Source of the DNA: Candidatus Dojkabacteria bacterium | GTDB lineage: Bacteria; Patescibacteriota; Dojkabacteria; JAOAGR01 | Direction: 5' to 3' | Length of the DNA stretch: 57,471 nt | Assembly (NCBI GenBank): GCA_026415655.1 | Contig: JAOAGR010000003.1 | Location: 1 to 57,471, forward strand | In this document: positions 17,163 through 46,800 of the stretch, piece after piece | Numbering within the stretch: position 1 is the first letter of the stretch | Layout of the letters: each line of letters opens with the position of its first letter | Program-made: the position numbers and the translations under genes | The notes under the pieces: model-generated | Database searches by the model: none | The model's input: only the letters and a program-made list of their open reading frames with translations | What the model was told of the DNA's origin: nothing

Positions 17163-18043
17163 TTAGCTCCGTCGCCTTTTTAATTCATCAAGCGTTTTCC
17201 CATCTTTATTTTTCCAATGCAACCATCCGTTTGTAGCTCCACCTTTTACAAAACCAGAAGCAGCACTAGGAGAAGAAAAGATCAATTTTCTTTTAACAAC
17301 ATTGTTTCCATTTTCTTCGGGCACCAAACTACCATCTTCTATAGTTTTCTCTCTTCTTTTTAATCTACCATATTCATATTTTTCAAATGACGGACTGTGT
17401 TTTCCTGAGACGATAGATCCCTCAAGAATAATAAATCCTTCATCTGTATAAAGCCCTATTGCATCGTAGTTTTTGCCTTTACAATAAAGTATTTCTTCCT
17501 GTTCATCTAGCTTGTCATTGAAATTTTCTAAAAATGTAAAACCGAGTGCTGAGGCTAGAATTTTCATATTTTCATAAAATTCATCCATCTGGTGTATATC
17601 TGTTCTAGGTAGTTTTGGCAGAGGTGGCACATTTTCATTTTGTAGTTTAACTGTATTGTTATTTTTTATTTGTTGAACTATTTTACTTTCTAAATATTTC
17701 ACATGTGCTTTTGTAAGATTATCATCCTTGGAGGTAAATACCATAACGAGATTCCAGAAATCTTTATTATTTTTATTATATGACGTATTATGCGTTTTGA
17801 AAATTCTTCGGCTTCCCCGACGTATACTGTTTTTTGATTTTCTTCTGAGTCACCAATCAGAAAATATACACATTGAGAGTTTAGATTTTCTCGGTTTTCG
17901 GGATTGTTTAATGTATTTTCTAACCTATTTCTAGGTATTAGATAAGCAATACCAGTCCAGTTTGATAACTCTACAATCTTAGTGCCAGTCGGTTCTCCAT
18001 CGGCTAGAGATATTTTTATGGTTTTCGGTTTCTGATTGTTCAT
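17163..18043 (-). pseudogene. GIY-YIG nuclease-like protein with DUF4357 domain, frameshifted
   Basis: The upstream frame (18043 to 17699) starts TIKISLADGEPTG and holds the GIY-YIG core as CVYFLIG...VYVGEAEEFSKRI. It then runs out of frame after HII. The second frame picks up in NNKDFWN and continues SKDDNLTKAHVKYLESKIV, with the DUF4357-type end GGATNGWLHWKNKDG. One lost or gained base in the A-rich stretch near 17765-17790 explains the break. Intact relatives are about 300-residue proteins of unknown role often found among restriction and mobile genes. A strong Shine-Dalgarno (AAGGAGAT) precedes its ATG, inside the end of the peptidase gene. That is rare in this window and may point to transfer. 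Confidence 0.75.
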
Positions 18044-21622: not shown

Positions 21623-22843
21623 CTATTGAGGCATTCCAATAGCAGTTGCAAGATTAAATATTGGTAAATATACTGCTATAGCAAGACCGCCCACCACAAC
21701 ACCCATCAAAATAAGAATCATTGGTTCCATGAGTTTGTTTAAGTTATTCACTAAGTTATCAACCTCTTTTTGAAATTGTACGCCAACTTTGAAAGTCACC
21801 TCATCTACTTTACCTATTTCTTCACCTACTCTAATCATATGACCTAGAAGTGGTGGAATATCAGGATTTGCTAATAAAGGTGCTGATAGTGGTATACCTT
21901 TTTCCACCTTCTTGGCGCATTCTTCGATAGCATCTTGAAATGTTTTATTTGAAAGGGAATTTCCAACCAAATTTAGAGCATCTACTATTGGTATACCTGC
22001 ATTTAAAAGCATGGAAAATGTATTTGCAAATGAAACAACTTGTGATTTACCAATAATTTCACCTGCTATTGGTATTTTTAACACAAGCTTGTCTAAAACT
22101 TTCTTTCCTGATGGCGTACTGTAATAATAAAACAATGATCCAAATGCAAATAATATCGCTACAAGTAATACTATACCTCCCCAACTTGTTATAAATTTGC
22201 TTATGTTTACAACAATTTGTGTGGCTAGTGGGAGTTCTAGATTCATTGATTCGTATAATTCAGACATTTGAGGAATCATTGAAGTCATAAGCAAAATCAC
22301 GACTACGATTATAATTATCAATACAATTGCAGGATACATCAGGGCTCCTTGTACTCGAGCTTGAAAGTCAGCTTTTTTCTCAAGTTCATCAGTCACTCTT
22401 GTTAGTATTTTATCTAGATTACCGGATTCTTCACCTGCTTTTATTAAATTAATTTCTAATGGATCAAATATATCAGTATATGCTGATAATGCTTTAGATA
22501 ATGTACTACCCCCTTCAATGGTTTCTTTGATTTTCTTTACAACATCCTTAAAATAAAGATTGTTTATTTGTTCGCGAGAGATTTCTAGGGCTTGCACTAA
22601 AGGTATACCTGCTTCGACCATAAAAGCAAGCTGCCTTATGAATGTGACTTTTTCTTTTAATGGTATACCGCCAATATTAATTTTTTGTAATGTTTCTAAA
22701 TCTATTCCTTTCTTTTTTAGTTGAAGTATAGTTAGATTTTGTGATAACAAAAAATCTGATGCCTGTTCTAAATTTTCAGCTTCAATCTCACCATATCTAA
22801 TTTGTTTTTTTTGGTCAATTACTTTGTAATTGAATATAGCCAT
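21623..22843 (-). CDS. pilC: Type IV pilus inner-membrane platform protein PilC
   Basis: 406 residues. Two T2SSF domains (about 70-195 and 275-395) each contain the helical core, with FIRQLAFMVEAGIPLVQALE and FANTFSMLLNAGIPIVDALN as the repeated signature. Three membrane segments lie near 170-190, 220-245 and 375-398. PilC sits under the pilus and couples PilB and PilT motors to pilin insertion and removal. It is the last gene of a pilB-pilT-pilC operon, 11 bases after pilT. Its stop lies two bases from the stop of convergent dprA. Confidence 0.96.
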   Translation of the reverse strand: MAIFNYKVIDQKKQIRYGEIEAENLEQASDFLLSQNLTILQLKKKGIDLETLQKINIGGIPLKEKVTFIRQLAFMVEAGIPLVQALEISREQINNLYFKDVVKKIKETIEGGSTLSKALSAYTDIFDPLEINLIKAGEESGNLDKILTRVTDELEKKADFQARVQGALMYPAIVLIIIIVVVILLMTSMIPQMSELYESMNLELPLATQIVVNISKFITSWGGIVLLVAILFAFGSLFYYYSTPSGKKVLDKLVLKIPIAGEIIGKSQVVSFANTFSMLLNAGIPIVDALNLVGNSLSNKTFQDAIEECAKKVEKGIPLSAPLLANPDIPPLLGHMIRVGEEIGKVDEVTFKVGVQFQKEVDNLVNNLNKLMEPMILILMGVVVGGLAIAVYLPIFNLATAIGMPQ

Positions 22844-22854
22844 ATTTATCTTAT

Positions 22855-24828
22855 TTACATATTAATTTTTAGCATTTTTTGTAGTTCATTGGGGCGTATT
22901 GCATACTCAAATGCTGTATCTACAGTTATTGCACCTGCTCTAATTAGTTGAACCAATGACTTTTCAAGTTGAATCATTCCCAAATCAGCACTTGTCGCTA
23001 TTACATTGTCAATTTGAAATACCTTTCCTTCTCTAATAAGATTTTGGATTGCCGGCGTCACAATCATTAACTCTATCACTGCTTTTCTACCCCCGCCAAT
23101 AAGTGGAACTAGTCTTTGACTAAGTATACCCTTTAAGACTCCTGCTAACTGATTTTTAATTTGTTCTTGTTGGTGTGGTGGAAATACATCAATTATACGG
23201 TCTATTGATTGAGCTGCACTGTTTGTGTGTAATGTTGCAAAAACTAAGTGTCCTGTTTCCGATAAAGTAAGAGCTGATTGTATAGTTTCTAAGTCTCTTA
23301 ACTCACCTACCAATATGACATCAAGATCTTCTCTTAATGCACTGCGCAGAGCAATGTTCCAATCATGTGTATCAGTACCGATTTCTCTTTGACTGACGAA
23401 TGCTTTTGCTTTAGGATATACATATTCAATAGGATCTTCGATTGTAAGTATATGTTTGGCTTCTGTTTCATTGATATGTTGAATCATAGCAGCAAGAGTT
23501 GTTGATTTTCCTGAACCTGTAGGCCCTGTAACCAAAAATAATCCTTGTGAGTATTTTGTAAATTCTAGCAATATATTAGGAAGACCAAGCTCTGCTAACG
23601 ATCTAATACGTTGAGGAATCAGACGATAAGCAGCAGCATATGAGTTTCTTTCGAAGTAAGCATTTATCCTGAATCGTGCCTTATCTTCATGTTGATAAGA
23701 GAGGTCAACCTCTTTATTAATTTCCAATAATTCTTTATGGCCTTGTGATAATGATTGAAAGACAAAATTTTTGACTTCTTCTTTTGTGAGCGGATCACCA
23801 ACTGGCTTTAAAATATCATCGACGCGTATTGTGGGGGGATATCCAGCTGCTATATGAAGATCCGATCCTTTTAATTCTAAAACTTTATCTAATAATTCAG
23901 AAATACTTCTAAACTGTTCTTTTTTAATAGTGGTATTCGTTTTAACATCATAAATATTTTGTGCATTTAGTTCATCAGTAGTATTTATATTTGGATCGGG
24001 TGAATTGTTTGTATTTATGTTCACTGAATTATCTAATGTTTCTGATTGGTTAAATATGTTAGGATTTTGATTAGAATATAAATCGGAAGAATTATTTTTC
24101 ATTTGATTGGCGTTTGCCATTGCAACGTTGGTGTTAGAATCTAACTGTATTGAATTCGACTCTATTCCATTAGGGATATAACTATCTGTATTAATATTGA
24201 CTTGTGAATTAGATGATATATCGGTATTTGAAACTTGTTGGTTGGATAGTTGTTGAACGTAAGGGGAAACATAACCGCCTATCGATGTTGTAAAGTCGTT
24301 TTGGGGATTTTGGCTGTTAGGGAGTTGTTCAAAATTATTGGATGATTCGTAATTATCAGTTTGAGATTGTTCCAAATTGTCTTGGTTCGAATTGAATTGT
24401 AAATTAGATGCTATGTCTTGTGTGTTAAAACTTATGTTATTTTCGGAATTGTTTGGATAGAAATTTGTATTATTGTTATAATCAGCTGAGCTTAAATACT
24501 GTTGTTGATTAGAAAAGCTTTGGTTATTAACAAATTGATCAGGCTGGTTCTGTGAATTATCTTGTATTGATTGGAAGGAGTGTTGAAATACTTCACTAGT
24601 TCTATTTTCATTTGAGATTTCAAAGTTTTGATTATCTATGGTCTGTCTATCACTATTTGCATTGGGCTGCTGTTTGGGTTGATTTTGCTGCGTTTGTTGG
24701 AATTGTTGAAAAGTTTGAATTTGTTGTTGAGGTTGAATAGTTTGTGTAGTTTGTTGTTGACCTGTTGGTGTGAAAAAGTTATTCATTTGCTGTTCCAGAA
24801 ATGGGCTCATTAGATTGTTGTCGTTCAT
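22855..24828 (-). CDS. pilT: Type IV pilus retraction ATPase PilT with long Q/N-rich N-terminus
   Basis: 657 residues from ATG 24828. A TTG at 24852 is in frame but weaker. The last 350 residues are a complete PilT: an N-terminal PAS-like domain beginning SISELLDKVLELKGSDLHI, Walker A GPTGSGKST, Asp box IEDPIEYVY, Walker B VGELRD and His box HTNS. The hexamer powers pilus retraction, which pulls DNA in. The first 300 residues are nearly all Gln, Asn, Ser and Thr, with runs such as QQQIQTFQQFQQTQQNQ, a prion-like low-complexity sequence that PilT normally lacks. Its function is unknown. It follows pilB by 36 bases. Confidence 0.93.
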   Translation of the reverse strand: MNDNNLMSPFLEQQMNNFFTPTGQQQTTQTIQPQQQIQTFQQFQQTQQNQPKQQPNANSDRQTIDNQNFEISNENRTSEVFQHSFQSIQDNSQNQPDQFVNNQSFSNQQQYLSSADYNNNTNFYPNNSENNISFNTQDIASNLQFNSNQDNLEQSQTDNYESSNNFEQLPNSQNPQNDFTTSIGGYVSPYVQQLSNQQVSNTDISSNSQVNINTDSYIPNGIESNSIQLDSNTNVAMANANQMKNNSSDLYSNQNPNIFNQSETLDNSVNINTNNSPDPNINTTDELNAQNIYDVKTNTTIKKEQFRSISELLDKVLELKGSDLHIAAGYPPTIRVDDILKPVGDPLTKEEVKNFVFQSLSQGHKELLEINKEVDLSYQHEDKARFRINAYFERNSYAAAYRLIPQRIRSLAELGLPNILLEFTKYSQGLFLVTGPTGSGKSTTLAAMIQHINETEAKHILTIEDPIEYVYPKAKAFVSQREIGTDTHDWNIALRSALREDLDVILVGELRDLETIQSALTLSETGHLVFATLHTNSAAQSIDRIIDVFPPHQQEQIKNQLAGVLKGILSQRLVPLIGGGRKAVIELMIVTPAIQNLIREGKVFQIDNVIATSADLGMIQLEKSLVQLIRAGAITVDTAFEYAIRPNELQKMLKINM

Positions 24829-24864
24829 ATATATCAGATTAAAATATTTCAAATTTTTTGTCTA

Positions 24865-26661
24865 TTATGTATGAATTACTCTTTGTACCTCTTCGATGGT
24901 AGTAATTCCTTCCAGCGCTTTAAAATATCCATCCTCTACCATTCTTATCATACCCTCACTTATTGCTTGATTTTCGATCTCGCTAGTACTTGCATGTTTC
25001 ATCACAAGGGCTCCGATTTTTTCTGAAACTTTAAATACTTCAAATATACCGATTCGACCAGTATATCCAGTAAAGTTGCATTTTTCACATCCTCTTCCTT
25101 TAAATAAGAATATGTTATTTGATTCCAAATTTGTATTTTCAATAGGGATTTTTTCTGTCTCAATGAGTTTAGATTGAAATTGTAAATATTTGTTTTCATC
25201 TAAATAAGAAGTATGACTTAAGACTCTTCGTAACTCTAATATTTCTTCTTCTTTGGCATGATAAGCATACTTGCAATTTTTACAAATTCTGCGACAGAGC
25301 CTCTGTGCACAACATATACTTACTGTGGAAGCCACAATGTATGGTTCAATCCCCATATCCAGAAGTCGTGGTAGTGTTCCTGCGGCACTATTTGTGTGTA
25401 ATGTTGAAATTACCAAATGTCCTGTTAATGAAGCTTGTGCCGCTAACTCTGCAGTTTCTTGATCTCGTATTTCTCCCACAGATATAATGTCGGGATCTTG
25501 TCTTAAAAACGCTCTTAATGCTGACGCAAATGTTAGACCTGCTTCTTCATTTACTTGTACTTGGTTGATGCCTGGGATGCGTATTTCAACAGGATCCTCA
25601 ATAGAGACTATATTTACATCTGGCTTGTTTAATAGAGACATGCTAGTGGCAACTGTGACTGTTTTTCCTGAACCTGTAGGACCTGTTACTAGGATAATAC
25701 CTGTAGTTGCTTTTAATCCTTCTTTAAATACCTTAAGGGCATTACCTCGCATACCTGTATCCTCAAGATTTAAAATACCCAGATCTTTCCTAAGTAAACG
25801 TATCACAATTTTTTCTCCCCATACTGTTGGTAAAGACGATATACGTAGGTCTATTTCATTTCCCTCGTATTTTATCTGTGATCGCCCGTCTAAAGGTTTT
25901 CTTTTTTCGTCGATTGGCATTTTACCGAGTATTTTGATCCTAGAAACTAAAGCTGGACCTAATGCTGGTGGAATAGTGATCTTTTCTACCAAAATTCCAT
26001 TTATTCTGTAACGAACCCTTATTATGTTTTCTTGTGGTTCAATATGAATGTCTGAAGACTTTTCAATTATTGCTGTTTGGATTATGAGAGTAACTAGTTT
26101 TGCGATAGGAGTATTTTTTAGATCAACATCATTAAGTTTTGTATCTTCGATTTTAGAAATGTCGATTATATCTTCGTCAGATTTTGCTTTTTCTATGACA
26201 TTTGAAAATTCAGAACTTATCTTGGTGTCTGTGAATTGGCTTAGGACCGATTTTATATCGCTTTCATTTGCTATAAATAATTCTAGTCTTCCATTTATCT
26301 TTTGTTCAATGAGTCTTAAATATTGTAGATTAATTGGATTGGCAATGGCTGCTTTATATGTATTACCGTTTTTCTTTTCAAAAATTATAATCTTATTTTT
26401 TTCGCATTCATCTATTGGCAGTAAGGATATGATATTTTTATCAATTTTGATTGATTTAATATCAATAATAGGTAGGCCATAAAGAACTGATTTAGCATGT
26501 GTTATTTGTTCTTCGGTTACTAATTTGTGTTCTAATAGAAGTTTTTCTGGTGAAATCTTTTTAATTAATGATTCATTTTTAATTTGTTTATATGTATCAA
26601 TTGAGATTATATTTTCGTTTACGAGGACATCTAAAATACTTGTTATTACACCAGCCGGCAT
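24865..26661 (-). CDS. pilB: Type IV pilus assembly ATPase PilB (GspE family)
   Basis: 598 residues. An N-terminal MshEN/T2SSE_N domain (about 1-150) leads to the GspE ATPase (about 180-560). Walker A is GPTGSGKTVTVA, the Asp box SIEDPVEI, Walker B SVGEIRD and the His box HTNSAAG. A tetracysteine zinc knuckle is seen as CRRICKNC and CEKCNFTG, as expected for PilB. The hexamer drives pilin polymerisation. It heads the minus-strand pilB-pilT-pilC operon and is divergent from the delta'-like gene with 40 bases between. Confidence 0.96.
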   Translation of the reverse strand: MPAGVITSILDVLVNENIISIDTYKQIKNESLIKKISPEKLLLEHKLVTEEQITHAKSVLYGLPIIDIKSIKIDKNIISLLPIDECEKNKIIIFEKKNGNTYKAAIANPINLQYLRLIEQKINGRLELFIANESDIKSVLSQFTDTKISSEFSNVIEKAKSDEDIIDISKIEDTKLNDVDLKNTPIAKLVTLIIQTAIIEKSSDIHIEPQENIIRVRYRINGILVEKITIPPALGPALVSRIKILGKMPIDEKRKPLDGRSQIKYEGNEIDLRISSLPTVWGEKIVIRLLRKDLGILNLEDTGMRGNALKVFKEGLKATTGIILVTGPTGSGKTVTVATSMSLLNKPDVNIVSIEDPVEIRIPGINQVQVNEEAGLTFASALRAFLRQDPDIISVGEIRDQETAELAAQASLTGHLVISTLHTNSAAGTLPRLLDMGIEPYIVASTVSICCAQRLCRRICKNCKYAYHAKEEEILELRRVLSHTSYLDENKYLQFQSKLIETEKIPIENTNLESNNIFLFKGRGCEKCNFTGYTGRIGIFEVFKVSEKIGALVMKHASTSEIENQAISEGMIRMVEDGYFKALEGITTIEEVQRVIHT

Positions 26662-31849: not shown

Positions 31850-32587
31850 ATGATGAATATTAATTTGAAGGGATTTACACTTATAGAAATAATTGTCGTA
31901 ATGACCATAATTGTCTTTTTGACTGCATCAACGATTGCGGGGGTATTTTATATACAAGATGCCTCACTTTTAGATAATGCGGTACGTGAAATACGTTCTT
32001 TTTTGCTTGGGGCTCAGTCTGTAGCTCAGAGTAAATTTGTTGTTGCTGATGGAGATATATTTGCGAATAATAATGGAGTTGTTATAGGGACTTATGTCAA
32101 GATAGATAATCAACAAGGGGCATCAGAGATAAGGTTGGTTCGAGGTGTGATATATTTTACCCCATTAAGAAATACTTTTGCTCCAGAAAAGGTCGCCTCT
32201 GAAATACAAAAGTTGTTTAATACTACTAGTGCAATAAGTCTTTCATGTACCAGCAGAGATGATTTTCGAGTTAACAGTAGTACATATAAGATTCGTGCAG
32301 TTATTAATGATTTAACACCTTATGATGCAAAATGTAAAGAATCAAGTGACTTGGACGTGTTTCTGGAAAAAACAATTAAAGGTGTACGGTATGATTCTTC
32401 CTCATCAACTTGTGGTGGTTATATATTTTTTTCAGCTGGTTATACAAAGATCCTTGCTAAGGATATAAATATAAATACAAACGGATCTTGTGCCATCAAG
32501 ATAAAGACTAATTCTATTTTAAGTGTTGTAAATACTATAAATATATCAAAAGATGGCTATATAAGAATATGTGGTTCGGGTTGTTAA
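31850..32587 (+). CDS. Type IV prepilin-like protein
   Basis: 245 residues. A short basic leader ends in a type III signal, LKGFTLIEIIVVMTIIVFL: Gly before the cut, Phe at +1 and Glu at +5, then a hydrophobic helix. It should be processed and methylated by a prepilin peptidase, which is not in the window. The long globular domain (about 30-245) has four cysteines and ends ICGSGC. This looks like a GspH/FimT-type minor pilin rather than a short major pilin. Its stop overlaps the next prepilin gene by 19 bases. It is the first of four linked pilin-like genes. Confidence 0.85.
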   Translation: MMNINLKGFTLIEIIVVMTIIVFLTASTIAGVFYIQDASLLDNAVREIRSFLLGAQSVAQSKFVVADGDIFANNNGVVIGTYVKIDNQQGASEIRLVRGVIYFTPLRNTFAPEKVASEIQKLFNTTSAISLSCTSRDDFRVNSSTYKIRAVINDLTPYDAKCKESSDLDVFLEKTIKGVRYDSSSSTCGGYIFFSAGYTKILAKDININTNGSCAIKIKTNSILSVVNTINISKDGYIRICGSGC

Positions 32588-33213
32588 ACAAAAAACTGAA
32601 TAACTGCTTGTTTAGTAAATTAAAAGCATTTACGCTTGTTGATCTGTTGGTCGGTATGGCTGTGAGTAGCATTGTACTTACTACAGTGGCAGTTTTTTCT
32701 ATTAGCATTTATCTAAAGGCGGAAACTAATACGGTGCGTGAGGCATTAAACCAAATCATCAATATTTTAGCAGAACAACAGAAGTATGTATTTGATGTAT
32801 TAGCGTACGCAAAACAACAAAATTTGCCAAACAAGGATCGACTTCGAGTTCAATTCTTTCCTAATCAGCAAAATACAATAGATGACTTCGATACATTTTG
32901 TAATAGTACAGATTCAGTCCATTACTCTATGTTTATTGATAATAATATAATCAATAATTCGAACAATTCATTAACTATTAGGTTTAGTAAGTTAAATTCT
33001 ACTACTTATGCAAACTATCAAGGTCCTGTCTTTGCGGGAGTACGCAATTCTCGTATTAATACTAAAAATATAAAGCTATTAATTGAGAGAAAAAGAGAGA
33101 ATAATAACTATTTAGTTTTGATCACAAATGTAATATATGAATACGATACAGTTCGTAAAGTAACAGTGCCAAGCTATCAATTGAGAATAAACAGAAATTC
33201 GGTATGCGATTAA
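32569..33213 (+). CDS. Type IV prepilin-like minor pilin with Asp at +5
   Basis: 214 residues. The class III signal reads LKAFTLVDLLVGMAV. Ala replaces Gly before the cleavage point and Asp replaces the invariant Glu at +5. Both are tolerated in some minor pilins of the GspJ/PilW kind; GspK is the classical pilin lacking Glu5. This may mark the tip of the filament, where the Glu5 salt bridge to the next subunit is not needed (inference). It overlaps both neighbours and is translationally coupled. Confidence 0.75.
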   Translation: MWFGLLNKKLNNCLFSKLKAFTLVDLLVGMAVSSIVLTTVAVFSISIYLKAETNTVREALNQIINILAEQQKYVFDVLAYAKQQNLPNKDRLRVQFFPNQQNTIDDFDTFCNSTDSVHYSMFIDNNIINNSNNSLTIRFSKLNSTTYANYQGPVFAGVRNSRINTKNIKLLIERKRENNNYLVLITNVIYEYDTVRKVTVPSYQLRINRNSVCD

Positions 33214-33833
33214 ATCTTGCATTAAAAACTAATTTATTACATAAAAAAATATCTGGATTTTCACTTATTGAGCTTTTGATATCTATGGTTATATTTATGG
33301 TGGTTTTATTGGTTTTGTCTACACTTTTTATGCGAGTTTTGGATTTGTCTGTAGCTCAGGATGCTAAAAATTCTTTTTTAACTCAGATACAAAATATAGC
33401 GTTAAACATAAAAAATACATTTAGAAATACAAAAAGTTTTGTTGTCTGCTCCCAAAATAATAATATGAGTAGTAATGCTGCTATAGTCATGAGCTTAAAT
33501 AACGATGATATAAAGATAGTAAGGTATGCAAACCGCAGCTTGGAAGAGAAAACAATTAGTGTAACACGTGATTTAGGTGGAAGTAGTAATTCATCTAATA
33601 ATAGTAGTTATTGTGATTATAATTCATCTATGTCGCGGATGCATGCTGCTAATGTTCAAATAAATTCATTTCTTATAAATGTCAAATCGGATATACCTAG
33701 TATACAAATAATTTACATTACAATAAATGCCTGTTCTAGAGATTTATTACCAAGATTGAACTTATATCATTGTGACGGTAGTAATTCTTCTGAATATAGA
33801 TATTCTTTTGCGGTTGTTGCAAGAAATAAATAA
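33204..33833 (+). CDS. Type IV prepilin-like minor pilin
   Basis: 209 residues. A 16-residue basic leader ends in KISGFSLIELLISMVIF, a canonical prepilin cleavage site with Glu at +5. The globular domain carries an Asn/Ser-rich loop (about 125-145) and several cysteines. It most resembles PilW/GspJ-type minor pilins by position and length. It overlaps the upstream gene by ten bases and is followed 20 bases later by the PilX-like gene, so the four form an operon. Confidence 0.82.
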   Translation: MRLNLALKTNLLHKKISGFSLIELLISMVIFMVVLLVLSTLFMRVLDLSVAQDAKNSFLTQIQNIALNIKNTFRNTKSFVVCSQNNNMSSNAAIVMSLNNDDIKIVRYANRSLEEKTISVTRDLGGSSNSSNNSSYCDYNSSMSRMHAANVQINSFLINVKSDIPSIQIIYITINACSRDLLPRLNLYHCDGSNSSEYRYSFAVVARNK

Positions 33834-33853
33834 ATTAGTCAAAATATTTGTAA

Positions 33854-34705
33854 ATGCTAGACATCAAAATTTATTTAAACAAAAAGTTTGCTGGTAATGC
33901 GCTTCTTCTGATATTGATAATTAGCGTAGTTATGGTAGCTATACTACTTAGCATATCCGATAGACTTATCAATACAGAGTTTAGTATAGCACGTACTTCG
34001 GAGTATGAAAGATCCTTGCTATATTCAGAAGGTTTTATTAATAACATAGTTTCTCTGTATGACAACATTCAATTTAAAAACTGCATAAGCAATACCGTGC
34101 CAGGCCTTGAATTTACTGATATTTCCGGTTGTTTCAACACTCTGGGTGGTGTAAATTTAGATAATCAACAATTAAAAGTTTATGCTAAGGCAACTCAAGA
34201 TAATCGTGTGAGTATCTCTCGTGGGCAGACTTTGATTTTGAGATTGGTTGAATCACTTGGTAATCCTCAAAATGCACCTATTATCGGGAACGTTGTTGCA
34301 AATATACAAAATTGCGGTAACAACGGTCTGAGAGACTTCATTTTTACAAGAGTTGGTTGGTACAATAATCGGATAATTGTCGGTAAATACAGGGGTACCG
34401 AGTCGACTATTCCACATATAAGCTGGATACATGTTGTGGACAAACGACAAACACCAAATCAGCCCAGTTACCCTACCCTTTATATTTCGGCCAGATATAT
34501 TGGTACTAGTGCAAATTGTCAGATAGGTTTTGATGTGTATAATAATTCTAATAATCAAGTTATCGCTTCAACTCGATCTTTGGAAATACTTTTACAGTCT
34601 AATGTTTATTTGGGAGCAAATTCTTTAGTATATTTCAGATTGCCTACTGGCGGTAGAACTCTGGTTACTGATAGTATCTATGATTATGTGTATTTTGAAC
34701 AATAA
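33854..34705 (+). CDS. PilX-like minor pilin
   Basis: 283 residues. The N-terminus KKFAGNALLLILIISVVMVAIL is a pilin-type helix with an Asn where most pilins have Glu, as in PilX/GspK-like proteins that often read 'G.ALI..L.....'. The rest is a large beta-rich domain with paired cysteines. In pilus systems PilX-like proteins bind the PilY1 tip adhesin. Here a 1272-residue secreted protein follows after one intervening gene, matching that order. The assignment is by pattern and context. Confidence 0.6.
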   Translation: MLDIKIYLNKKFAGNALLLILIISVVMVAILLSISDRLINTEFSIARTSEYERSLLYSEGFINNIVSLYDNIQFKNCISNTVPGLEFTDISGCFNTLGGVNLDNQQLKVYAKATQDNRVSISRGQTLILRLVESLGNPQNAPIIGNVVANIQNCGNNGLRDFIFTRVGWYNNRIIVGKYRGTESTIPHISWIHVVDKRQTPNQPSYPTLYISARYIGTSANCQIGFDVYNNSNNQVIASTRSLEILLQSNVYLGANSLVYFRLPTGGRTLVTDSIYDYVYFEQ

Positions 34706-34708
34706 ATA

Positions 34709-34737
34709 TTGACATGGCTATTAAAACTAGATAAATT
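34709..34737 (+). promoter_or_regulatory. Promoter of the response-regulator gene
   Basis: Consensus -35 TTGACA (34709-34714), exactly 17 bases, then TAAATT (34732-34737). Eight bases separate it from ATG 34746. It is the clearest two-box promoter in the window. Confidence 0.6.
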
Positions 34738-34745
34738 AATCTTAT

Positions 34746-35156
34746 ATGAATCAAGATAATAATGTCTTTGATAAAAAAATTTTCATACTTGATGATGAGG
34801 AGGATATATTGGAAGTATTGACTGAGGCCTTAAATAGCGCTGGATTTCATGATATTGATACTGCAATTCGTGGTGAAGAAGCATTAGAAAAAATAGCTCA
34901 AAAAAAGTATGACTTACTGTTGCTAGATATAATGATGCCTGAAGGGATAAATGGTATTGATGTACTAGATAAGGTCAAAACGAATCCAGATAAATATGGG
35001 ACTCCGATCGTTATCATGTTAACAAATGTGGGTATATCGAGTACTATCAAATATGCATTTGAAAAAGGAGCTGATGCGTATTTAAATAAAATGGCAATGT
35101 CAAACAAGAGCATAATCGAAAGTGTAAAAAAATATCTAAACGGATTTAGGGTATGA
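34746..35156 (+). CDS. Stand-alone response regulator receiver protein (CheY-like)
   Basis: 136 residues, a single REC domain with no output domain. The phosphorylation pocket is complete: the acidic pair in LDDEEDI near residue 16, phospho-acceptor Asp61 in LLLDIMMPEG, the IVIMLTN strand, and Lys near 115 in YLNKM. No histidine kinase is encoded in the window. Standing between minor pilins and the large secreted protein, it may control pilus function by protein contact, as PilG/PilH/CheY do elsewhere (inference). Its stop overlaps the next gene start (ATGA), so the two are translated together. Confidence 0.9.
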   Translation: MNQDNNVFDKKIFILDDEEDILEVLTEALNSAGFHDIDTAIRGEEALEKIAQKKYDLLLLDIMMPEGINGIDVLDKVKTNPDKYGTPIVIMLTNVGISSTIKYAFEKGADAYLNKMAMSNKSIIESVKKYLNGFRV

Positions 35157-38100
35157 AAGAATGTATAAAAATCTTAATGTTGTTTACTTTCTTTTGTTTC
35201 TTATATATATTTATTGGTATAAGTTATAGTGCAGATGCTCAGATCTTACAGGATCCTCCTCCTTCTGAAAGATTGGCTAACGGATTAACGCTAAATTCTC
35301 GAAATAATAACATTTTAGGAATTGATAAAGTAAGGACAGGTAATAGTTCAAATCCCGAGACAATATTAGGAGTATTTGGTGAACGAAATTTTTCGAACTC
35401 AACATTATCTACTTTCATAAGAATCAGGGAGTTTAATGGTAGTAGTTGGATATCTCCCAGCACTAACGTTCTAGTGGATCTACAATATGATAATGACGGA
35501 TATGCATTTTATAGCCTTGTGATAGTCAATGATTTTGATAACGATCCTAACAACTCAATAGGTGGAGGTTTTATAACTGTTGGACGAACGACATTGAATG
35601 CTCCTTATCATCTGATTATATATTATTTTAATAATGGGGTTTTGAACAGTCAACTAAAAAATATCCAATCTGATATATTAGGTAATGATCGCAGTGGTGC
35701 TCAAGAGTTCTGGCATACATTTAAACATGTCCAAAACGGTGTAGAATATTTTGTTGCTACTTTTTATGATGGTAAAAGTTCAAAATCGAGTAATCAATTA
35801 TGGTTTAAGATTAAAGAAATACTAAATTCGTCTGGAAATATTAATTTAAATGCTTTGTATATTAGACGCTGTCCAAGTATTGGAACTAATCCGTCAGTTG
35901 TTTGTCGCTTGCGTTCTTTTGTTAATGGTATCGCTAACGATAGAAATGTAACAGTAAAATGGGATCATCTTATTAATGTTATAGATTCATCTGAAGATAA
36001 AGATAATATGGTGACTTATATAGCCTATACTTATGCTTATGGTGAAGGAGATCGTAATACGAATACAGTACTTCGCATTGCTACAATTGATAATATTGAT
36101 GATAACTTTGGAATAAACATAACGTCTATTGTACCCAACTCATTTCAATTTGAATATAATCTTTTAATTGGTGAATATGTAACAGGTGTGTCATTATACT
36201 TTAGGAATAATTATTTATACGTTTTGTACTCTTCACGACATAGGAATGGAGGTTTAGGTTATGATCGAATAGCTCTTGCAGTTTATAACAGAAATAATCC
36301 GGCTTGGCAAAAATATGAAGTTGGTTTTGGACCTGTGATTACTAGTGATATTTCAATTGGTGATTTTTCTATTATTGAAAATAACTTATATTTTTCTTAT
36401 TATTTTGATGATCAAAATGGTGCTCCCGATCGTTGTAATGGTTATAAGTGGTATAGAATCAATCCCTCAACAAATCCACCATATCAAGTACATGATATAA
36501 ATTGTAATAATAATGAGCAGATACCTTATGGGGGTGTATTTCTCATTGTGATGAATAGCAAATATTATTATTTTGTGGGTAACAATTTTCGAATGTTTGA
36601 AAAGGATATGGGTTATATAGCTCCGCACAATGGTGAAGGTATGGCTACAAATGTATATGCGGTATGGCATTATGTATATTTGTCTATACCTGATTCGTGT
36701 GAATCTATGACTATAACTTATACACCGATAAATGAAAATCAGCAGTCTACTATAGTGGTTAATGCTAGATCTAGCGCAAACACCATGACATTACCCAAAC
36801 CGGGTACTCCAATAACAATTTCTTCAGTACGTCATCTCAATGCGCCAAACTTTAGTACATTTTGGATGAGGCCAGCAAATCTAACAGATACACAGTTAGA
36901 TGATAGGTGTAATTATTTTCTGATATACTCCAACACTACATATCCCACAGTAACAATAACCACAAATGGAAATACAACACGTGCTAATTTTATGTTACCG
37001 GATAATATTTATTCTTCGGGTTTAATGACAAATCAGAACGGTTGTAATAGAGTATTGGATTTTTTACAAGGAATTGTTTTTGGAGTGAATTATGTGGATT
37101 GGGTTAATGGTAATAGATGGTGTAGAAATGCTGGGCCATCTATATCGGATGCTACTGTGTACCAAGTTTCAGGAAATCGATCCATACAAGTGAATCCAGT
37201 TCAAAGATGTAATAACTATTGTGTTATTGTAGCAAGTTATAGACCAAGCACTAAGTGTGAAGTCACTTCACCAACAGGTAATGTAAACCTGTTAACTTCT
37301 GGTTTATCTATTTCTTTTCATATCAAAGATGCAGTATTTTCGAATATCAGTTCTATTATTAGATATTCTGTTGATTTAAGCAATATCTCGATACAAGACG
37401 ATAATTTTAATGATAGCACTCTACGAATCGTAAGGGGAGCAACTTCTGCGGAGTTAAACAATAATTCATATCAAACTAGTTTTATAAATGACGGTTTAAA
37501 TCTACATTATAATATCAATATACCATCTTCGATTTTTGCAAGAACAGAGTTTAATGATTTAGCGGGTACTGGTAACATTCCCATAGTTTTAAAAGTAATA
37601 ACAAATAATCAATTAACGCTTAATTGTAATTTTGTTGGTTCGGGTCCGCCAGGTAGTCCACCAGGAACAGGGACAGGAACGTTGACTAGTTTGCCAAGTT
37701 TTCAAATCTCTCATAATTGTATTACTCCATACAGATGGAATGTTACAATTATACCACAGGGAGGTTCAGTCGAGAGAATTTATTATAGATTTAATAATTC
37801 TGCTCCATTGACAGGTATTACTAATGAAATGGATGATCAAGAAATAACACGGTTATTATATCCACTAATATCATCGCAAGAGAATCCGCTTGTGAGGGTA
37901 TCGCAAGATGGACCTAACTATCAAATAGATGCGACTAGATTAACGGATAATAGTTTAACTCTTTATGTCATTGTTCGTGACGGTTTTGGAAGACGGAACG
38001 TGAATTTCATACAAAATAATATTACATTGGTAGGACAACGCATCAGTAATTTTTCTGATAGATTTAGTCAAAATAGTATTTGTATGAATCTATTTTATAG

Positions 38101-38971
38101 CACTCAAAGAGGTGATGCTGCAATAAAAAATACGATAGGTAATCCAAATAGTGGACACAAAATTTTTGATTATATAGTAAACAGTAGTTCTGTAGCTTCA
38201 GTATTGATGGTTTTAGGTGCTGATGATTATCGCGTGAATCAAGATAATAATACATATATTCATAATATTCAGACACAGTTATCAAACTTGCAAAATAATC
38301 TGGGTAGTATAGTTGAAACGGGGACGATTACGAGTAATAATGTAACAGTTCTTGAACCAAAATCAAATATCGTAAGATTATATGCGCCTTCAGACATAAA
38401 CAGTAGCTCTCCATTTACTCTAATGTATCCTGATACCAATAAGGAATCACAAGGGGGAATGATTATTGTTTATTGTCCGAATTGTACTTTGAGAATTAAT
38501 CCTCATATTACTATATCTGGATCTAATTATGAACAGAACCAATTATCTATGGTTTTGAATTATCCTGATAATCCTTCAGAGACCAAATATATATTTTTTG
38601 CTAACAAAATAGAGTTTATTGGTACTGGTTCATATAATTTAAGTAATAGTGTAATTAATTTTAGTAATCAACCTACTTTTAATTTGTACAAAGGCATGTT
38701 TATAGCAAAAGATTCATTGACAACTGATTATAGTACTACAACAAATATTGTTTATGGTAGTGTTTATGTTGGATCGGGGCGGATAATTCAAAGACCAGCA
38801 GAGGGAGAGTGTAGTAATCGTCCTCGTCGTTGTTTTATATATCAAAATCCTAACTTGAATGTTCGCTATCCTTATATTCATATTATGTACGATCCCATAT
38901 TGGCTTTGAGAGCTGGAGAGTATATAGGTTCTGATCCTTCTAGATACAATCGTTCGATTGTGGGGTTATAG
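35153..38971 (+). CDS. Large secreted protein, candidate pilus-tip adhesin (PilY1-like by position)
   Basis: 1272 residues. A signal peptide (about 1-27, ending SYSADA) precedes a long extracytoplasmic region rich in Asn, Ser, Tyr and beta strands. The first 480 residues show recurrent 'YIAYTY... LRIATI' strands that suggest a beta-propeller. Scattered paired cysteines suggest disulfides. A Gly/Pro linker (GPPGSPPGTGTGT) lies near 830, and a C-terminal domain at about 1080-1272 has right-handed-helix-like strands. There is no transmembrane anchor or sortase motif. I cannot match a named family. Position after the minor pilins and a PilX-like gene, and before pilMNO, mirrors PilY1. Confidence 0.6.
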   Translation: MKECIKILMLFTFFCFLYIFIGISYSADAQILQDPPPSERLANGLTLNSRNNNILGIDKVRTGNSSNPETILGVFGERNFSNSTLSTFIRIREFNGSSWISPSTNVLVDLQYDNDGYAFYSLVIVNDFDNDPNNSIGGGFITVGRTTLNAPYHLIIYYFNNGVLNSQLKNIQSDILGNDRSGAQEFWHTFKHVQNGVEYFVATFYDGKSSKSSNQLWFKIKEILNSSGNINLNALYIRRCPSIGTNPSVVCRLRSFVNGIANDRNVTVKWDHLINVIDSSEDKDNMVTYIAYTYAYGEGDRNTNTVLRIATIDNIDDNFGINITSIVPNSFQFEYNLLIGEYVTGVSLYFRNNYLYVLYSSRHRNGGLGYDRIALAVYNRNNPAWQKYEVGFGPVITSDISIGDFSIIENNLYFSYYFDDQNGAPDRCNGYKWYRINPSTNPPYQVHDINCNNNEQIPYGGVFLIVMNSKYYYFVGNNFRMFEKDMGYIAPHNGEGMATNVYAVWHYVYLSIPDSCESMTITYTPINENQQSTIVVNARSSANTMTLPKPGTPITISSVRHLNAPNFSTFWMRPANLTDTQLDDRCNYFLIYSNTTYPTVTITTNGNTTRANFMLPDNIYSSGLMTNQNGCNRVLDFLQGIVFGVNYVDWVNGNRWCRNAGPSISDATVYQVSGNRSIQVNPVQRCNNYCVIVASYRPSTKCEVTSPTGNVNLLTSGLSISFHIKDAVFSNISSIIRYSVDLSNISIQDDNFNDSTLRIVRGATSAELNNNSYQTSFINDGLNLHYNINIPSSIFARTEFNDLAGTGNIPIVLKVITNNQLTLNCNFVGSGPPGSPPGTGTGTLTSLPSFQISHNCITPYRWNVTIIPQGGSVERIYYRFNNSAPLTGITNEMDDQEITRLLYPLISSQENPLVRVSQDGPNYQIDATRLTDNSLTLYVIVRDGFGRRNVNFIQNNITLVGQRISNFSDRFSQNSICMNLFYSTQRGDAAIKNTIGNPNSGHKIFDYIVNSSSVASVLMVLGADDYRVNQDNNTYIHNIQTQLSNLQNNLGSIVETGTITSNNVTVLEPKSNIVRLYAPSDINSSSPFTLMYPDTNKESQGGMIIVYCPNCTLRINPHITISGSNYEQNQLSMVLNYPDNPSETKYIFFANKIEFIGTGSYNLSNSVINFSNQPTFNLYKGMFIAKDSLTTDYSTTTNIVYGSVYVGSGRIIQRPAEGECSNRPRRCFIYQNPNLNVRYPYIHIMYDPILALRAGEYIGSDPSRYNRSIVGL

Positions 38972-38973
38972 AT

Positions 38974-39000
38974 TTGACATTTATCTTAAAAATCTATAAT
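38974..39000 (+). promoter_or_regulatory. Promoter of pilM
   Basis: TTGACA (38974-38979), 15 bases, TATAAT (38995-39000), then nine bases to ATG 39010. The upstream in-frame TTG at 38974 is this -35 box, not a start. Confidence 0.55.
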
Positions 39001-39009
39001 TTAATAAAT

Positions 39010-40053
39010 ATGGCTCTACCGTATTTTGGTCTAGATATAGGAAATCATTCTATAAAGGCGATAAGGTTAGATAGTACGGATATTAATACACGGCTTGTGG
39101 GTTATGCCTATGGTTCTACTCCTGCCGGTGTATTGACAGTACAGGATGATGAAAGTTTTAAGAGGCTTGCTAAAGCTATAAAAGATATTTTAAATAGTTC
39201 GAATCTTGCTTCAGTAAAACAAGTGATTTTTGCTGTACCGGAGAGTCATGTAATTAGACAACTGATGCACCTACCGTATATGAATGATGAAGAATTAGAA
39301 AATGCGGTGATTTTTGAGATGAAAAAGTGGATAAATGCCCCTATTGAACAAATGAGGATAGATAAAGTGGTTATTGGAGAAAAAATAGTTGATAACCAAC
39401 GGATAATCGATGTACTAGGCGTAGCAGTTAGGATTGATTATTTGGATAGATATGTGGAGCTTCTTAGTAGTATAGGTCTGGAGCCAATAGCTGCAGAGAC
39501 TGAGGGTATTGCCACAGTCAGAGCTATATATCCTCAGGCTACAGATCTTACCTCAACATATCTTATTGTAGACGTTGGGTCACAAAGTACTGATGTTAGT
39601 GTTGCTTTTAAGGATAAACTTCTCTATTCCGATTCAATTCCTTATGGTTCAGATAGTGTGACAAAAGCCATTTCTCAAACATTTTCGTTGGATTTGATAA
39701 AAGCAGAGGCTTATAAAAAAACGTATGGGATGATTCGAGGTAACTTTGGTGGTAAATTAGCTGATGTTATAGAACCTGTCGTAGATGTGATATTAAATGA
39801 TGTAAGAAGATCAATTGATTTCTTTCGCACGGAGTACAGTGAAATTCCCCCTCAAAGAATTTATTTAACTGGAGAAGCTTCAAACATGCCGGGCTTTTTA
39901 GAGTATTGTAAAGAAAAATTAATGATTGATGTTGTCATCACAAATCCATGGCAAAATATAGAAATTAATAGTGCAGATGCCGCTAATCTGAAAAAAAATT
40001 CTTTTGCTTATACCGTGGCAATAGGTCTCGCTCGTAAATCAGATGTTTTTTGA
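39010..40053 (+). CDS. pilM: Type IV pilus assembly protein PilM
   Basis: 347 residues from ATG 39010. The actin-like ATPase fold is clear: phosphate 1 motif GLDIGNHSIKAIRL, connect and phosphate 2 region LIVDVGSQSTDVSV, and the adenosine motif IYLTGEASNMPGFLEY. PilM binds the cytoplasmic tail of PilN and forms a ring on the inner membrane face that links motors to the PilN/PilO alignment complex. It starts a pilM-pilN-pilO operon. No pilP or pilQ follows, consistent with a cell lacking an outer-membrane secretin. Confidence 0.95.
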   Translation: MALPYFGLDIGNHSIKAIRLDSTDINTRLVGYAYGSTPAGVLTVQDDESFKRLAKAIKDILNSSNLASVKQVIFAVPESHVIRQLMHLPYMNDEELENAVIFEMKKWINAPIEQMRIDKVVIGEKIVDNQRIIDVLGVAVRIDYLDRYVELLSSIGLEPIAAETEGIATVRAIYPQATDLTSTYLIVDVGSQSTDVSVAFKDKLLYSDSIPYGSDSVTKAISQTFSLDLIKAEAYKKTYGMIRGNFGGKLADVIEPVVDVILNDVRRSIDFFRTEYSEIPPQRIYLTGEASNMPGFLEYCKEKLMIDVVITNPWQNIEINSADAANLKKNSFAYTVAIGLARKSDVF

Positions 40054-40062
40054 TTTTTTTTT

Positions 40063-40731
40063 ATGAGTAGAGGATTAAATCTAATAAGAAAAGAATATCA
40101 GGAACAAAAAATATTAAAATCTGAAATTAACTGGTATAAAATTTTAAATATTGCTCTGGTGATTTTATCAATAGTTTTAGGAGTAACAGGGTATTTAACA
40201 AAATTATATTTTGATGGAGAATTAGATAAAAAACTTAATGAAATATACAGAATTGCTCGGAGTGCTAATGGGTGTTACTCAGATTCACCTTCTAGTGTTT
40301 CTGATTGTACAAGGTCCAATGTTTTACATCAGATCAATGTAATCAATGATAAGGCTAGGCTATTAGAACAGCTTGCTGATAGAAATTTTTTATTTAATGC
40401 TTTTTATGATAGATTGAGTAAAATTTATCCTAAAGCAAAGATTAATTCTTTTGATATAGCTAGAGATTCACAAGATGTAGAAGTTTCTTTGGAAATAAAT
40501 GAAAATGGTTATGAAGAATTGCCATCATTTATCACTGCTATTAGAAATAATTCGGATTTTGGTGGAAATGTAGAATTAGTTACTTTTTCTTTTGTGAACG
40601 ATTATGCAGTTTCGGCATCTGAGTTTTATTCAAACAATCAAATATTTAGATCTACAAAACTAAATATCATAATTAAAGTACCGATAGTCAAATTCAGTTC
40701 AGGACAATTATCAAATCAAAATGAACAATGA
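40063..40731 (+). CDS. pilN: Type IV pilus assembly protein PilN-like
   Basis: 222 residues. The N-terminus SRGLNLIRKEYQ matches the PilN motif (INLLP-like) that inserts into PilM. One membrane segment (about 28-48) is followed by a coiled region and a ferredoxin-like fold (about 95-215). It forms heterodimers with PilO. A Cys pair at about 70-80 (GCYSDSPSSVSDC) could form a disulfide loop. It starts nine bases after pilM without an SD and overlaps pilO by four bases. Confidence 0.85.
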   Translation: MSRGLNLIRKEYQEQKILKSEINWYKILNIALVILSIVLGVTGYLTKLYFDGELDKKLNEIYRIARSANGCYSDSPSSVSDCTRSNVLHQINVINDKARLLEQLADRNFLFNAFYDRLSKIYPKAKINSFDIARDSQDVEVSLEINENGYEELPSFITAIRNNSDFGGNVELVTFSFVNDYAVSASEFYSNNQIFRSTKLNIIIKVPIVKFSSGQLSNQNEQ

Positions 40732-41852
40732 ACAGTGAGTTGCAAAAATTGAATATTGAAAAACAAGATTTGAGTCAGAATGATGATCCAATAAGTTTAC
40801 AGAAAAAACAGGTAGAAGAAGAAAAATATAAATTAATTTTAAAAAAGGTAAGAGAAAATAAATTTGTATATTATGGTTACCCAATATTTGTTATTCTTCT
40901 TTTTGGACTATCTATTTTTTATTTTGTATTACCAGCATTAGAGTCTTATTTCAACTATAACAGTTATTTTGTTAAATATACCGAAGACAAAAAAACTCTC
41001 GATCAAAATTTTTCGAATCTTGTACGAGCACAATCAAATTATAGTCTTTTAATGGACTATGAAAATAAACTTACTGAGATTTTACCTGAAGAGATATTAA
41101 TAGGTAATTTGATAGATCAGATACAGAAAAAAGCGGATTATTATGGTTTGGAAAGAAATATTGTCCAAGATAGACAATCGGATGAACAACTGGGGAATTC
41201 TGATCAAGATAGCAACACTGTATTGGACCGTGCTAAGTTTACAAGACTTGATTCTGGTGAATATGAGTTTGTGCCTGATTTTGTTACAAATAACCGAAGT
41301 GTAGGACGATTAATAAAAATTAACTTAGAAATTACTGGACCTAAAGAAAAATTTTTAGAATTTATGCGAGATATTGAAAATAGTACACCCATTTTGAATC
41401 TAATATTTTTGGAATATAAAGAAGATGATAGTGGTAAAGTAAGTGTTAACGCTACGTTTGAGACTTATAGTTTAAGATCTAACGATAATTTAAATCCGAA
41501 AATCTATCTTTTAAATATACCCGCTGATTATAAACTGATCAAAGATTTTTCTTTTTCTATAGAAGACTTCGAAGTTGATAATGTGGTAATAAATGTTTTA
41601 GAGAAGATATTTGCTAGAGTTAGATCAAATAATTCCTCCCCACCCCAAACAAGTCAAGATATGTTTTCGGGTTATAATAGTCCAAATTCTGGTTCTAACC
41701 TCGATTCTACCAATGAAAATAATACAAAAAATAATGAAACAAATTATGTTGATGAATTGAACAATGATGATGAAATAATTGATAATGAATATTATGAAGG
41801 TGGTATCTATGATGAATTATATGATGAATTATATGATGAAGTGGTTGAGTAA
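40728..41852 (+). CDS. pilO: Type IV pilus assembly protein PilO-like with acidic C-terminal extension
   Basis: 374 residues. A charged cytoplasmic N-terminus (about 1-45) is followed by a membrane helix (about 46-66), a coiled-coil stretch (about 75-115; LVRAQSNYSLLMDYENKLTEILP is PilO-like) and a ferredoxin-like domain. The last 75 residues are an unusual Asn/Asp/Glu-rich tail ending in YDEL repeats, encoded by a 12-base tandem repeat (41808-41841). PilO pairs with PilN to align the pilus machine. The tail is outside the membrane and its role is unknown. Confidence 0.82.
   Translation: MNSELQKLNIEKQDLSQNDDPISLQKKQVEEEKYKLILKKVRENKFVYYGYPIFVILLFGLSIFYFVLPALESYFNYNSYFVKYTEDKKTLDQNFSNLVRAQSNYSLLMDYENKLTEILPEEILIGNLIDQIQKKADYYGLERNIVQDRQSDEQLGNSDQDSNTVLDRAKFTRLDSGEYEFVPDFVTNNRSVGRLIKINLEITGPKEKFLEFMRDIENSTPILNLIFLEYKEDDSGKVSVNATFETYSLRSNDNLNPKIYLLNIPADYKLIKDFSFSIEDFEVDNVVINVLEKIFARVRSNNSSPPQTSQDMFSGYNSPNSGSNLDSTNENNTKNNETNYVDELNNDDEIIDNEYYEGGIYDELYDELYDEVVE
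41808..41841 (+). repeat. 12-base in-frame tandem repeat in pilO
   Basis: Two exact copies of TATGATGAATTA and a partial third encode YDEL repeats. Copy-number change would keep the frame and only alter tail length. Confidence 0.8.
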
Positions 41853-43870: not shown

Positions 43871-46800
43871 ATGTTTGTTTTTTTTAGAAAAATTAATTCT
43901 TTTTTGCTTGTTATTCTGATTGGTCTTTTTTATTATTACTACGGTATATATGAAGGCCAAATAGGTTTATCAGTGTATTCTAGTGAAATTGATATAGAAG
44001 AATTTTTAAATGCAAGGTTTCAAAGTACAGAAATAATATACAATGAATATAATGTTAATCTGGATAATTCTACATATACAGCATATTTTTTGAGCGACGG
44101 ATTTAGTGGGTCTGTTCCTGATAAGGAAAATATAAAATATACTCTTCCAGTAAATATAGAAACTACTATAGCTAAAGCTACCTTGCGGACTCCCCCATCC
44201 CCTATGATTACAACTCTTAATCTTGATGTTCCCAGGACCCGTGACCGTGTTTTAGGTTGTTATGTAAAAGAAGCAGAAGCAAATAGTGAGTGTTTGCGTA
44301 ATGTTAGCACGCTTTCTTTACAAAATGTTGTTGCAAATGATTTAACATTTGAAAATACCGACGTTCGTTCTAATACTAATCCTTCTCAAAACAATAATAA
44401 TTCTGTTAATACAAGTCCATTAATTTCTTTTCTTGATACTGTCTTAGCGCCGATAGTCAATCTGGCAGAGACATTTACTAATAATTCTAATATAGAACTA
44501 TTTGGAGTTCGTACAGTCACAAATGTAGGACAGGTAGTAAAAGACATATCAACGGTGGGATCAAATTTTTTATGGGGGCATGATGACATACAGCAATTTG
44601 TGCCCGTTGAAGGAAAATCAGGTGGAAAAAAAGCGGTGCTTCCTGTAACAATAGAAGTACAAGGATACGGTGGACAATCAAATGAAAATGCTTTTGTAAA
44701 TAGTTTTGGAAATTTGACTCTTGAAAGTACGGAGATATTTAGATTGCCAAACATGGGTATTGGTGGTGGTAATACAGAGGTGAAAGGAAAAACCTTATCA
44801 GCTTTTGCCATTTATGATCCTTTTACCACGATTGTAGATCCAAATCAGCAAGTCGAACAAGGAGCAACGGCAAAGGTTGTTAACTTTATTTACAATCTAT
44901 TCGCTAATATAGTCCAAACTAATCAAGTGGTTCCTACAAACTACTCAAGGTTTGGTATTCCAAATCCTATAAGAAGTATTACAAATGCGAAAGAAATAAA
45001 CTATGCTTATAATCTTGATAAAATTGTTAGATTTGCTAATCCCGCACCTACACCCTTACCAAATCCTTTTCCTCCACCAGATAATTCTTGTCGAAATGAG
45101 TATGCAGGGGAGCTAGAACAAAATGGATGTAATAATCAAAATAGCAATGTTGAAATATGTAAGCAAATTGAAGATCAAATAGAAGAGTGCAAAGAAAAAA
45201 GAAATAAGTATTACTATGGTTATAATAGGTTACCTAGTTCAACCAAACAGGCATTTGCAATAATCAAAGAATTTGTTGCTGAGGACCAGCTAAAAGCCTG
45301 TATTCAGTCCCAGATTGATGGACAAGGTTGCGATTTGCTTTCTGTTGAGGAGGGCAATAATGTTATTGGATATCAAAGTAAAAGTATACCTGTTGGATCA
45401 ACTCTTGCCTCGCAACAGAATCTGAGAGATTTATGGAATGATAAGTCATTTAACGATCCTTGGATAAATTACCTTTCTCCATCGTGGTGTTCCGAATATA
45501 CGGAGTTTGGGAGAATTAAAGCGACGGGTGAATCGGCCTCTGGGGTTTATAGGGTACAACTGCAAGATATTGAGAGAAAGTTATCTGTAGAGGCACAAGA
45601 TATACAGGAATCAATGAACAGAGATGACAATGTACCAACAACAAATCAGGGTACACGTAATGTTAAAGATACTAGAGGAAATGTGCTTGCTGTAGATTTT
45701 ATGTTGACACATTGTGTTATTGCGGGGGGGTTGCAAAACTATGTTGTTAGTCAAGCTTTAAACTATGCCAATTATTCAACCGATTCTGAGTTAACTGGTA
45801 AATGGAATGTTCCAAGAGCAGGGCTGACTTGTGATAAAAAAGAAGTTGCGATTCATGGAAAACCTATAAAGACTAATGTTCCAACAAGAGATTCTATACC
45901 ATATACGCTTATTGGGGATTTAGATAGAGCAAAATCTCGTGGTCATGCTCTCGGCATACAGTACGATAATAATTATTGGGATTTAACAGCAATTTTTTCT
46001 AAGGATTACGGAGAGCTAGGATTGCGTTATCCGGACTATAATGTTTATGAATATGCCGGACAAGATATGGTCTTGATTTTAGATACTCTAGGTAATCCTC
46101 GATATGTTGTTGGCAACTTAAATAAACCTGGACCAGATAATACTACAGGCGAAGTTAAACCTTTTATTTGTTATATACCTCCACAAGAACAACTAGCACT
46201 TATGACCTATCTTATACAAAGATTTACTAATTCTGATGTGCTATGCAGAGTTTTGTTAGAAAATAGTGAATATTTTTCATTAGTTCAATTTGCTTCCTAT
46301 CAAAGATACATTGTTGACATGAATCAAGATGATAAAATGGAAAATTTTGATGTGATAAATATTATTTCAAAAGGAGATAATATGCGTGTTTTCCAGCTGA
46401 TAGTGCCTGTTGTAACAGAGTTTGGGGTAGACTTTCCCGTAGTAGCTAAAGGAAGTGTAAATTATAAGGATATTCTAACCAAACCCGATCAATGGGATTT
46501 TGATGAATCGGGCGGACAAATATACGGTATAGCACGTAATGAAAATAATTTAATTAAAATATATAAAATCACAAATGTATACGATATAAATCTAAGAAAT
46601 TATATTCTTAATATAAATGAAGTTTCTTCTAATGATTGCTTTGGTATCAAGGTTTGTAATTCGGAATATGTGTTTTTGAAACTATTTACAGGTTCTAATA
46701 ATATGTATGCCACATTAACTTTTGCAGGAGATCGAGAAGATTATGATTCGTTTAGCTTGGGGTACCTATTAGAGATACCATATTCTGTTTTTGATTCTAA

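Follow-up and report, generated by a model that had tools for sequence, protein, structure and literature searches.

A long disordered N-terminal arm on the type IV pilus motor PilT in the class Dojkabacteria

In type IV pilus biology it is still an open question by what means PilT is recruited and how it alternates with PilB on PilC. In the product of the pilT gene in the 57,471-nucleotide stretch of contig JAOAGR010000003.1 from a Candidatus Dojkabacteria bacterium (the window), nearly half is a glutamine- and asparagine-rich sequence placed ahead of the motor. The initial annotation described this half as a prion-like domain that might cluster motors or set their location. We therefore asked whether the extension is a genuine part of the protein, which of its properties are kept among relatives, and what role would fit these properties best.

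The pilT gene and its product

The pilT reading frame (22855-24828) lies on the minus strand, which the initial annotation did not state, and runs from an ATG at 24828 to a stop at 22855. Its 657-amino-acid product consists of an N-terminal extension of 306 residues (residues 1-306, 23911-24828, minus strand) with 37% Q+N and a PilT core of 351 residues (residues 307-657, 22858-23910, minus strand), both within one uninterrupted frame, so that the described fusion of a roughly 300-residue Q/N-rich half to PilT was confirmed. An in-frame TTG at 24852 is an alternative start that would add eight amino acids, and since no Shine-Dalgarno-like site was visible ahead of the ATG, the exact start of the gene is uncertain.

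The ATPase behind the extension is complete, as had been claimed. Residues 309-648 matched the TIGR01420 pilT_fam profile along its length (profile positions 2-343 of 343, E 5e-134, 446.9 bits against a cut-off of 319.1), and the core carries the Walker A (GPTGSGKST), Asp box (TIEDPIEY), Walker B (VILVGELRD) and His box (GHLVFATLHT) motifs as well as AIQNLIREGK as its version of the AIRNLIRE-type motif. The key columns of these motifs are invariant or nearly so among relatives. The best profile for the core was PilT and not CpaF/TadA. The nearest solved proteins are the PilTs of Aquifex and Geobacter, none of the solved PilT structures spans the extension, and the modelled core superposed on Geobacter PilT4, the top Foldseek match, with a TM score of 0.94 on target length. 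The gene for the extension ATPase PilB (24865-26661, minus strand; MshEN and T2SSE domains) lies directly upstream and that for the inner-membrane platform protein PilC (21623-22843, minus strand) directly downstream; the order pilB-pilT-pilC (21623-26661) recurs in relatives. Profile, motor motifs and linkage to pilB and pilC all place the protein among the PilT/PilU retraction ATPases and, by homology, it is the sole PilT retraction ATPase of this cell with its 882-kb genome. A short PilT paralogue beside the long form was absent from this genome and was found once in the class (G014).

A second type IV pilus block at 31850-41849 is set apart from pilB-pilT-pilC by gyrA. It contains pilin-like genes with N-methylation motifs (31850 and 33204), a response regulator (34746), a 1272-residue protein without a Pfam match (35153-38968), pilM (38974-40053, plus strand; PilM_2), an adjoining pilN-like gene (40063-40731, plus strand) and a weakly PilO-like gene. 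PilM is a candidate docking partner on the cytoplasmic side. The pilN-like gene had no Pfam match, and its putative identity comes from its position and the form of its N-terminus, MSRGLNLIRKEYQ. Elsewhere in the window, a 1788-residue protein without a Pfam or NCBIfam match is encoded between gyrB and a 215-residue gene (43871-49237), and a small protein (17163-17744) shows a DUF4357 domain and weak RAMA similarity.

The initial annotation had named a conserved internal start behind a non-coding Q/N region as the finding that would speak against the fusion. No ATG occurs in the window from 30 codons before to 12 codons after the core start, and across 13 related pairs the extension showed an excess of third-position substitutions and pN/pS values of 0.21-0.59, so that this objection fails. 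The core of the same pairs had values of 0.01-0.15; pS was near saturation in most of the 13 pairs, with a dS of 0.40 and a dN of 0.07 in the closest (G051/G052). By these substitution patterns the extension is coding and under purifying selection, and an internal start yielding a normal PilT was rejected for the window. Among relatives, scattered ATGs and a few Shine-Dalgarno-like sites lie near the core start, and a second, short PilT product may therefore exist there.

In an AlphaFold2 model built on an alignment of class relatives, residues 2-289 had pLDDT values nearly all below 50 and the core mostly values above 90. The extension, in which no Pfam domain was found, is thus predicted to be intrinsically disordered, and in the model this arm leads into the PilT domain without an intervening three-helix bundle.

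Distribution and conserved features of the extension

PilT was read in 81 of the 86 class genomes; one f10 gene was cut by a contig end. Extensions of at least 50 residues were present in 66 of these 81 proteins and of at least 100 residues in 59, with a median length of 178 and a maximum of 678 residues among the 66. Extended PilTs occur in 15 of the 17 families. No extension is present in the sister families f11 and f12 or in genus g15 (family f6), and in f16 three of the four members add just some 30 residues, from which it follows that the arm is not essential to PilT as such. A quick tree of PilT cores, whose root is without firm support, places the window's family on the deepest branch of the class and f11 next to f12 as its sister; on this tree, the distribution of the long arm requires six changes. 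The simplest reading is that the ancestor of the class Dojkabacteria probably had a long arm, which was lost later in some lineages.

The PilTs listed outside the class in a search of the phylum were open reading frames of about 350-400 residues. The one exception (G377, C4, L144) is a reading frame of 507 residues with a 152-residue extension rich in P, S, T and Q, which is probably an independent case. Named PilTs from Clostridia, Gemmatimonadota, Lentisphaeria and others carry at most about 50 extra residues; the named genomes scanned included a single close Dojkabacterium, and the nearest relative in the genome set was G001 (Dojkabacteria KatS3mg084). Within the literature searched, no paper on a PilT with a long disordered extension was found. 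The long arm is a class-wide PilT architecture, established by sequence, of which we found no earlier description. Polar low-complexity tails were also seen at the start of PilB in two genomes (G028, L238:6287-8227; G011, L237:9417-11258).

Within its own genome, the extension stands out in composition. It contains 51 Q, 63 N, 36 S, 24 T and only 7 K+R, and its Q+N share of 37% compares with 10.3% in the open reading frames of this genome, nearly all of which was read (binomial about 1e-35). For yeast-type Q/N-rich prion domains we took at least 30 Q/N in 80 residues as the threshold. With the Q/N count per 80-residue window as our measure, the best window of the extension reached 38, above this threshold and rank 2 among the 765 reading frames of the genome, with a genome median of 12. 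The extension is also the longest polar, low-hydrophobic stretch among the reading frames without a transmembrane-like segment, and 43% of this stretch is Q/N, against a median of 20% for comparable stretches of the genome. An AT-rich genome composition alone is therefore insufficient as an explanation: other disordered-type stretches have half the Q/N of the arm, although the share of asparagine is indeed linked to GC among the class members. No tandem DNA repeat was found under the extension, and an origin from expanded repeats was rejected. The earlier wording of poly-Q-like runs is an overstatement, as no run of Q or N exceeds three residues. In genome G000, disordered Q/N tails recur on secretion-type proteins: a VirB4/TraG-like ATPase (C13, L156:18157-20000) has a Q/N-rich N-terminal tail, a PrgI-family protein (C12:21023-22963) has a Q/N-rich stretch, and a reading frame in G001 (C1:579320-581548) resembles the VirB4/TraG-like ATPase in start and length.

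Across the relatives, the presence of the arm (66 of 81) and its disorder held up, but its composition did not. The Q+N share of the class extensions ranged from 6 to 46%, and the threshold of at least 30 Q/N per 80 residues was reached by only five of the 66. Asparagine dropped as GC3 rose (Spearman -0.60), P+A+G climbed (0.52), and P, S, T and acidic residues abound in the extensions of many relatives, while Q/N-rich arms recur in seven families (f1, f4, f5, f6, f7, f15 and f16). The features that do persist are the low hydrophobicity and the length of the arm, together with short motifs specific to families.

These motifs are best defined in f15, whose tip reads MDNNTAQ...[FL]xYP[DS]F; TAQ or TAP stands near the start in 26 of 26 aligned sequences, with TA invariant. 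Most f15 members also share the block IMPxxKKPKAMxRxPKxxNLAxP, which was found in 20 of 69 extensions and in none of 200 shuffles. An amphipathic LxALAxKLxxLK segment marks f13, f14, part of f15 and f17 (eight matches, none in shuffles), and a tip of the form MP[FL][IV]x[IL] marks f2, f3, f4, f5, f7 and f8 (12 matches, at most one in shuffles). Common to the window's family is GY[VM]SPY, whose central copy, GYVSPYVQQ at residues 185-193 (24250-24276, minus strand), appears as GYMSPYANQ in G001; an N-terminal copy, NLMSPFLEQQ at residues 5-14 (24787-24816, minus strand), resembles in form both the residue-186 copy and the sequence at residue 30 in G001. The targeted patterns were written after the sequences had been viewed, and the shuffle figures are therefore a guide only. 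We relied on patterns for individual families because an unbiased gapped-motif scan in a reduced alphabet barely exceeded its shuffles (nine genera against seven to eight). Because the motifs vary from family to family, there is no one docking site common to the whole class, and in a low-confidence AlphaFold model of an f15 PilT the conserved block was not confidently docked. Judged by its sequence pattern, the extension is conserved as a disordered arm that bears short motifs specific to families, and not as a prion-like domain.

Candidate roles of the arm

The extension shows short conserved motifs between linkers that evolve fast, a pattern typical of docking arms, and we therefore favour a role in recruitment or regulation at the pilus base. 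We consider it reasonably probable that the extension serves there as a flexible arm for docking or regulation, with a putative partner at this site. Homologues of PilT form hexamers and act on PilC (PMC6858323); by analogy, a PilT hexamer would present six disordered arms from its N-terminal domains around the ring. The arms would serve as flexible tethers bearing short linear motifs, and we infer that these bind a partner at the pilus base, such as PilM/PilN, PilC or a regulator. Such binding could concentrate PilT locally or control when it is exchanged for PilB.

The observations that define the extension can also be read in other ways. A Q/N arm could self-associate and thereby cluster PilT hexamers at pilus sites or store them, and the 38 Q/N in its best window, the high Q/N content of its longest polar stretch and the Q/N-rich arms of seven families all point in this direction. 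However, few of the class extensions reach the threshold, asparagine tracks GC3, many relatives are rich in other residues, runs are short, and such a role would not require the conservation of motifs, for which a docking arm appears to account better. Condensate or prion behaviour is possible in the window's species and is not a class-wide property; as a conserved function, prion-type self-assembly is not supported, and overall we regard this explanation as unlikely. A prion-like call made from one AT-rich genome can mirror the local flavour of disorder and not a conserved prion behaviour. Quite unlikely, in our estimate, is that the arm is a near-neutral spacer: a disordered tail that drifts fast and does little by itself, as on other proteins of these AT-rich small genomes. 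Its rapid divergence (36-50% identity in several pairs where the cores share 82-96%), its absence from f11, f12 and part of f6, and the other Q/N tails in the genome would all fit, but pN/pS was below one in 13 of 13 pairs, the extension is kept in 15 of 17 families, and the f15 tip and its IMP...KPKAM block are strongly conserved.

A more specific form of docking would let the tip of the arm imitate the N-terminal PilN peptide that binds PilM, so that PilT docks on PilM. PilM binds a short cytoplasmic part of PilN (PMC4471445), and it is present in 86 of 86 class genomes. The PilN N-termini of these genomes (INLIPP, INLVPI, FNLLPK) resemble several PilT tips (INLSYP, VNLNYP, MPFVNLT, MPLININ), and [ILVFM][ND][LIVF] occurs within the first 25 residues in 25 of 66 extensions (shuffles: mean 10.3, maximum 23). 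However, the motif is very short, its enrichment is modest, and the window's own tip (NNLMSPF) fits poorly. We hold this mimicry to be improbable, and likewise doubt the wider proposal that a disordered multivalent arm with a PilN-mimic tip wires PilT to the pilus machine across most of the class. If it were true, competition for PilM would control retraction, a kind of motor recruitment that we did not find described for type IV pili. In f15 and relatives, PilN-like proteins (L246-L257) carry a polar leader before INL[IV]P that is longer than the usual few residues. For a docking or regulatory arm in general, the armed class beside its arm-less sister families offers a natural comparison, and the conserved motifs point to candidate binding sites.

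Comparison with known systems

Canonical PilTs (TIGR01420; Aquifex, Geobacter PilT4, Pseudomonas PilT) share the full set of core motifs, the pilB-pilT-pilC context and the best fold match with the window's protein, but the solved ones have about 356-390 residues and no long disordered N-terminus. The Clostridium botulinum Rho prion-like domain is likewise a Q/N-rich low-complexity segment in a bacterial protein (PMC4703818), whereas the Q/N richness of PilT is not conserved in relatives. In its main text, a 2015 survey of prion-like proteins in bacteria makes no mention of PilT. PilB, GspE and PilF likewise have an N-terminal extension ahead of the motor, and their GSPII (MshEN) domains dock the motor to PilM or GspL-type proteins (PMC6325625); these domains are folded, while the PilT arm is predicted to be disordered and has no Pfam domain.

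The nearest known case, by analogy, is the disordered N-terminus of about 79 residues on CpaF, the class II CpaF/TadA motor of the Caulobacter Tad pilus, which belongs to the same motor superfamily. Truncation of this region lowered pilus extension and retraction, but not ATPase activity, and the authors suggested protein-protein interactions (PMC12019362). In the hands of another group, CpaF without residues 1-78 kept wild-type phage sensitivity (PMC11300603), which argues against a docking arm. CpaF is a bifunctional motor of another subfamily, in which a three-helix bundle separates the arm from the motor; the window's protein has no such bundle and PilT as its best profile, and thus falls outside class II. 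The PilT arm of the Dojkabacteria is typically two to eight times longer than that of CpaF and joins the PilT N-terminal domain directly.
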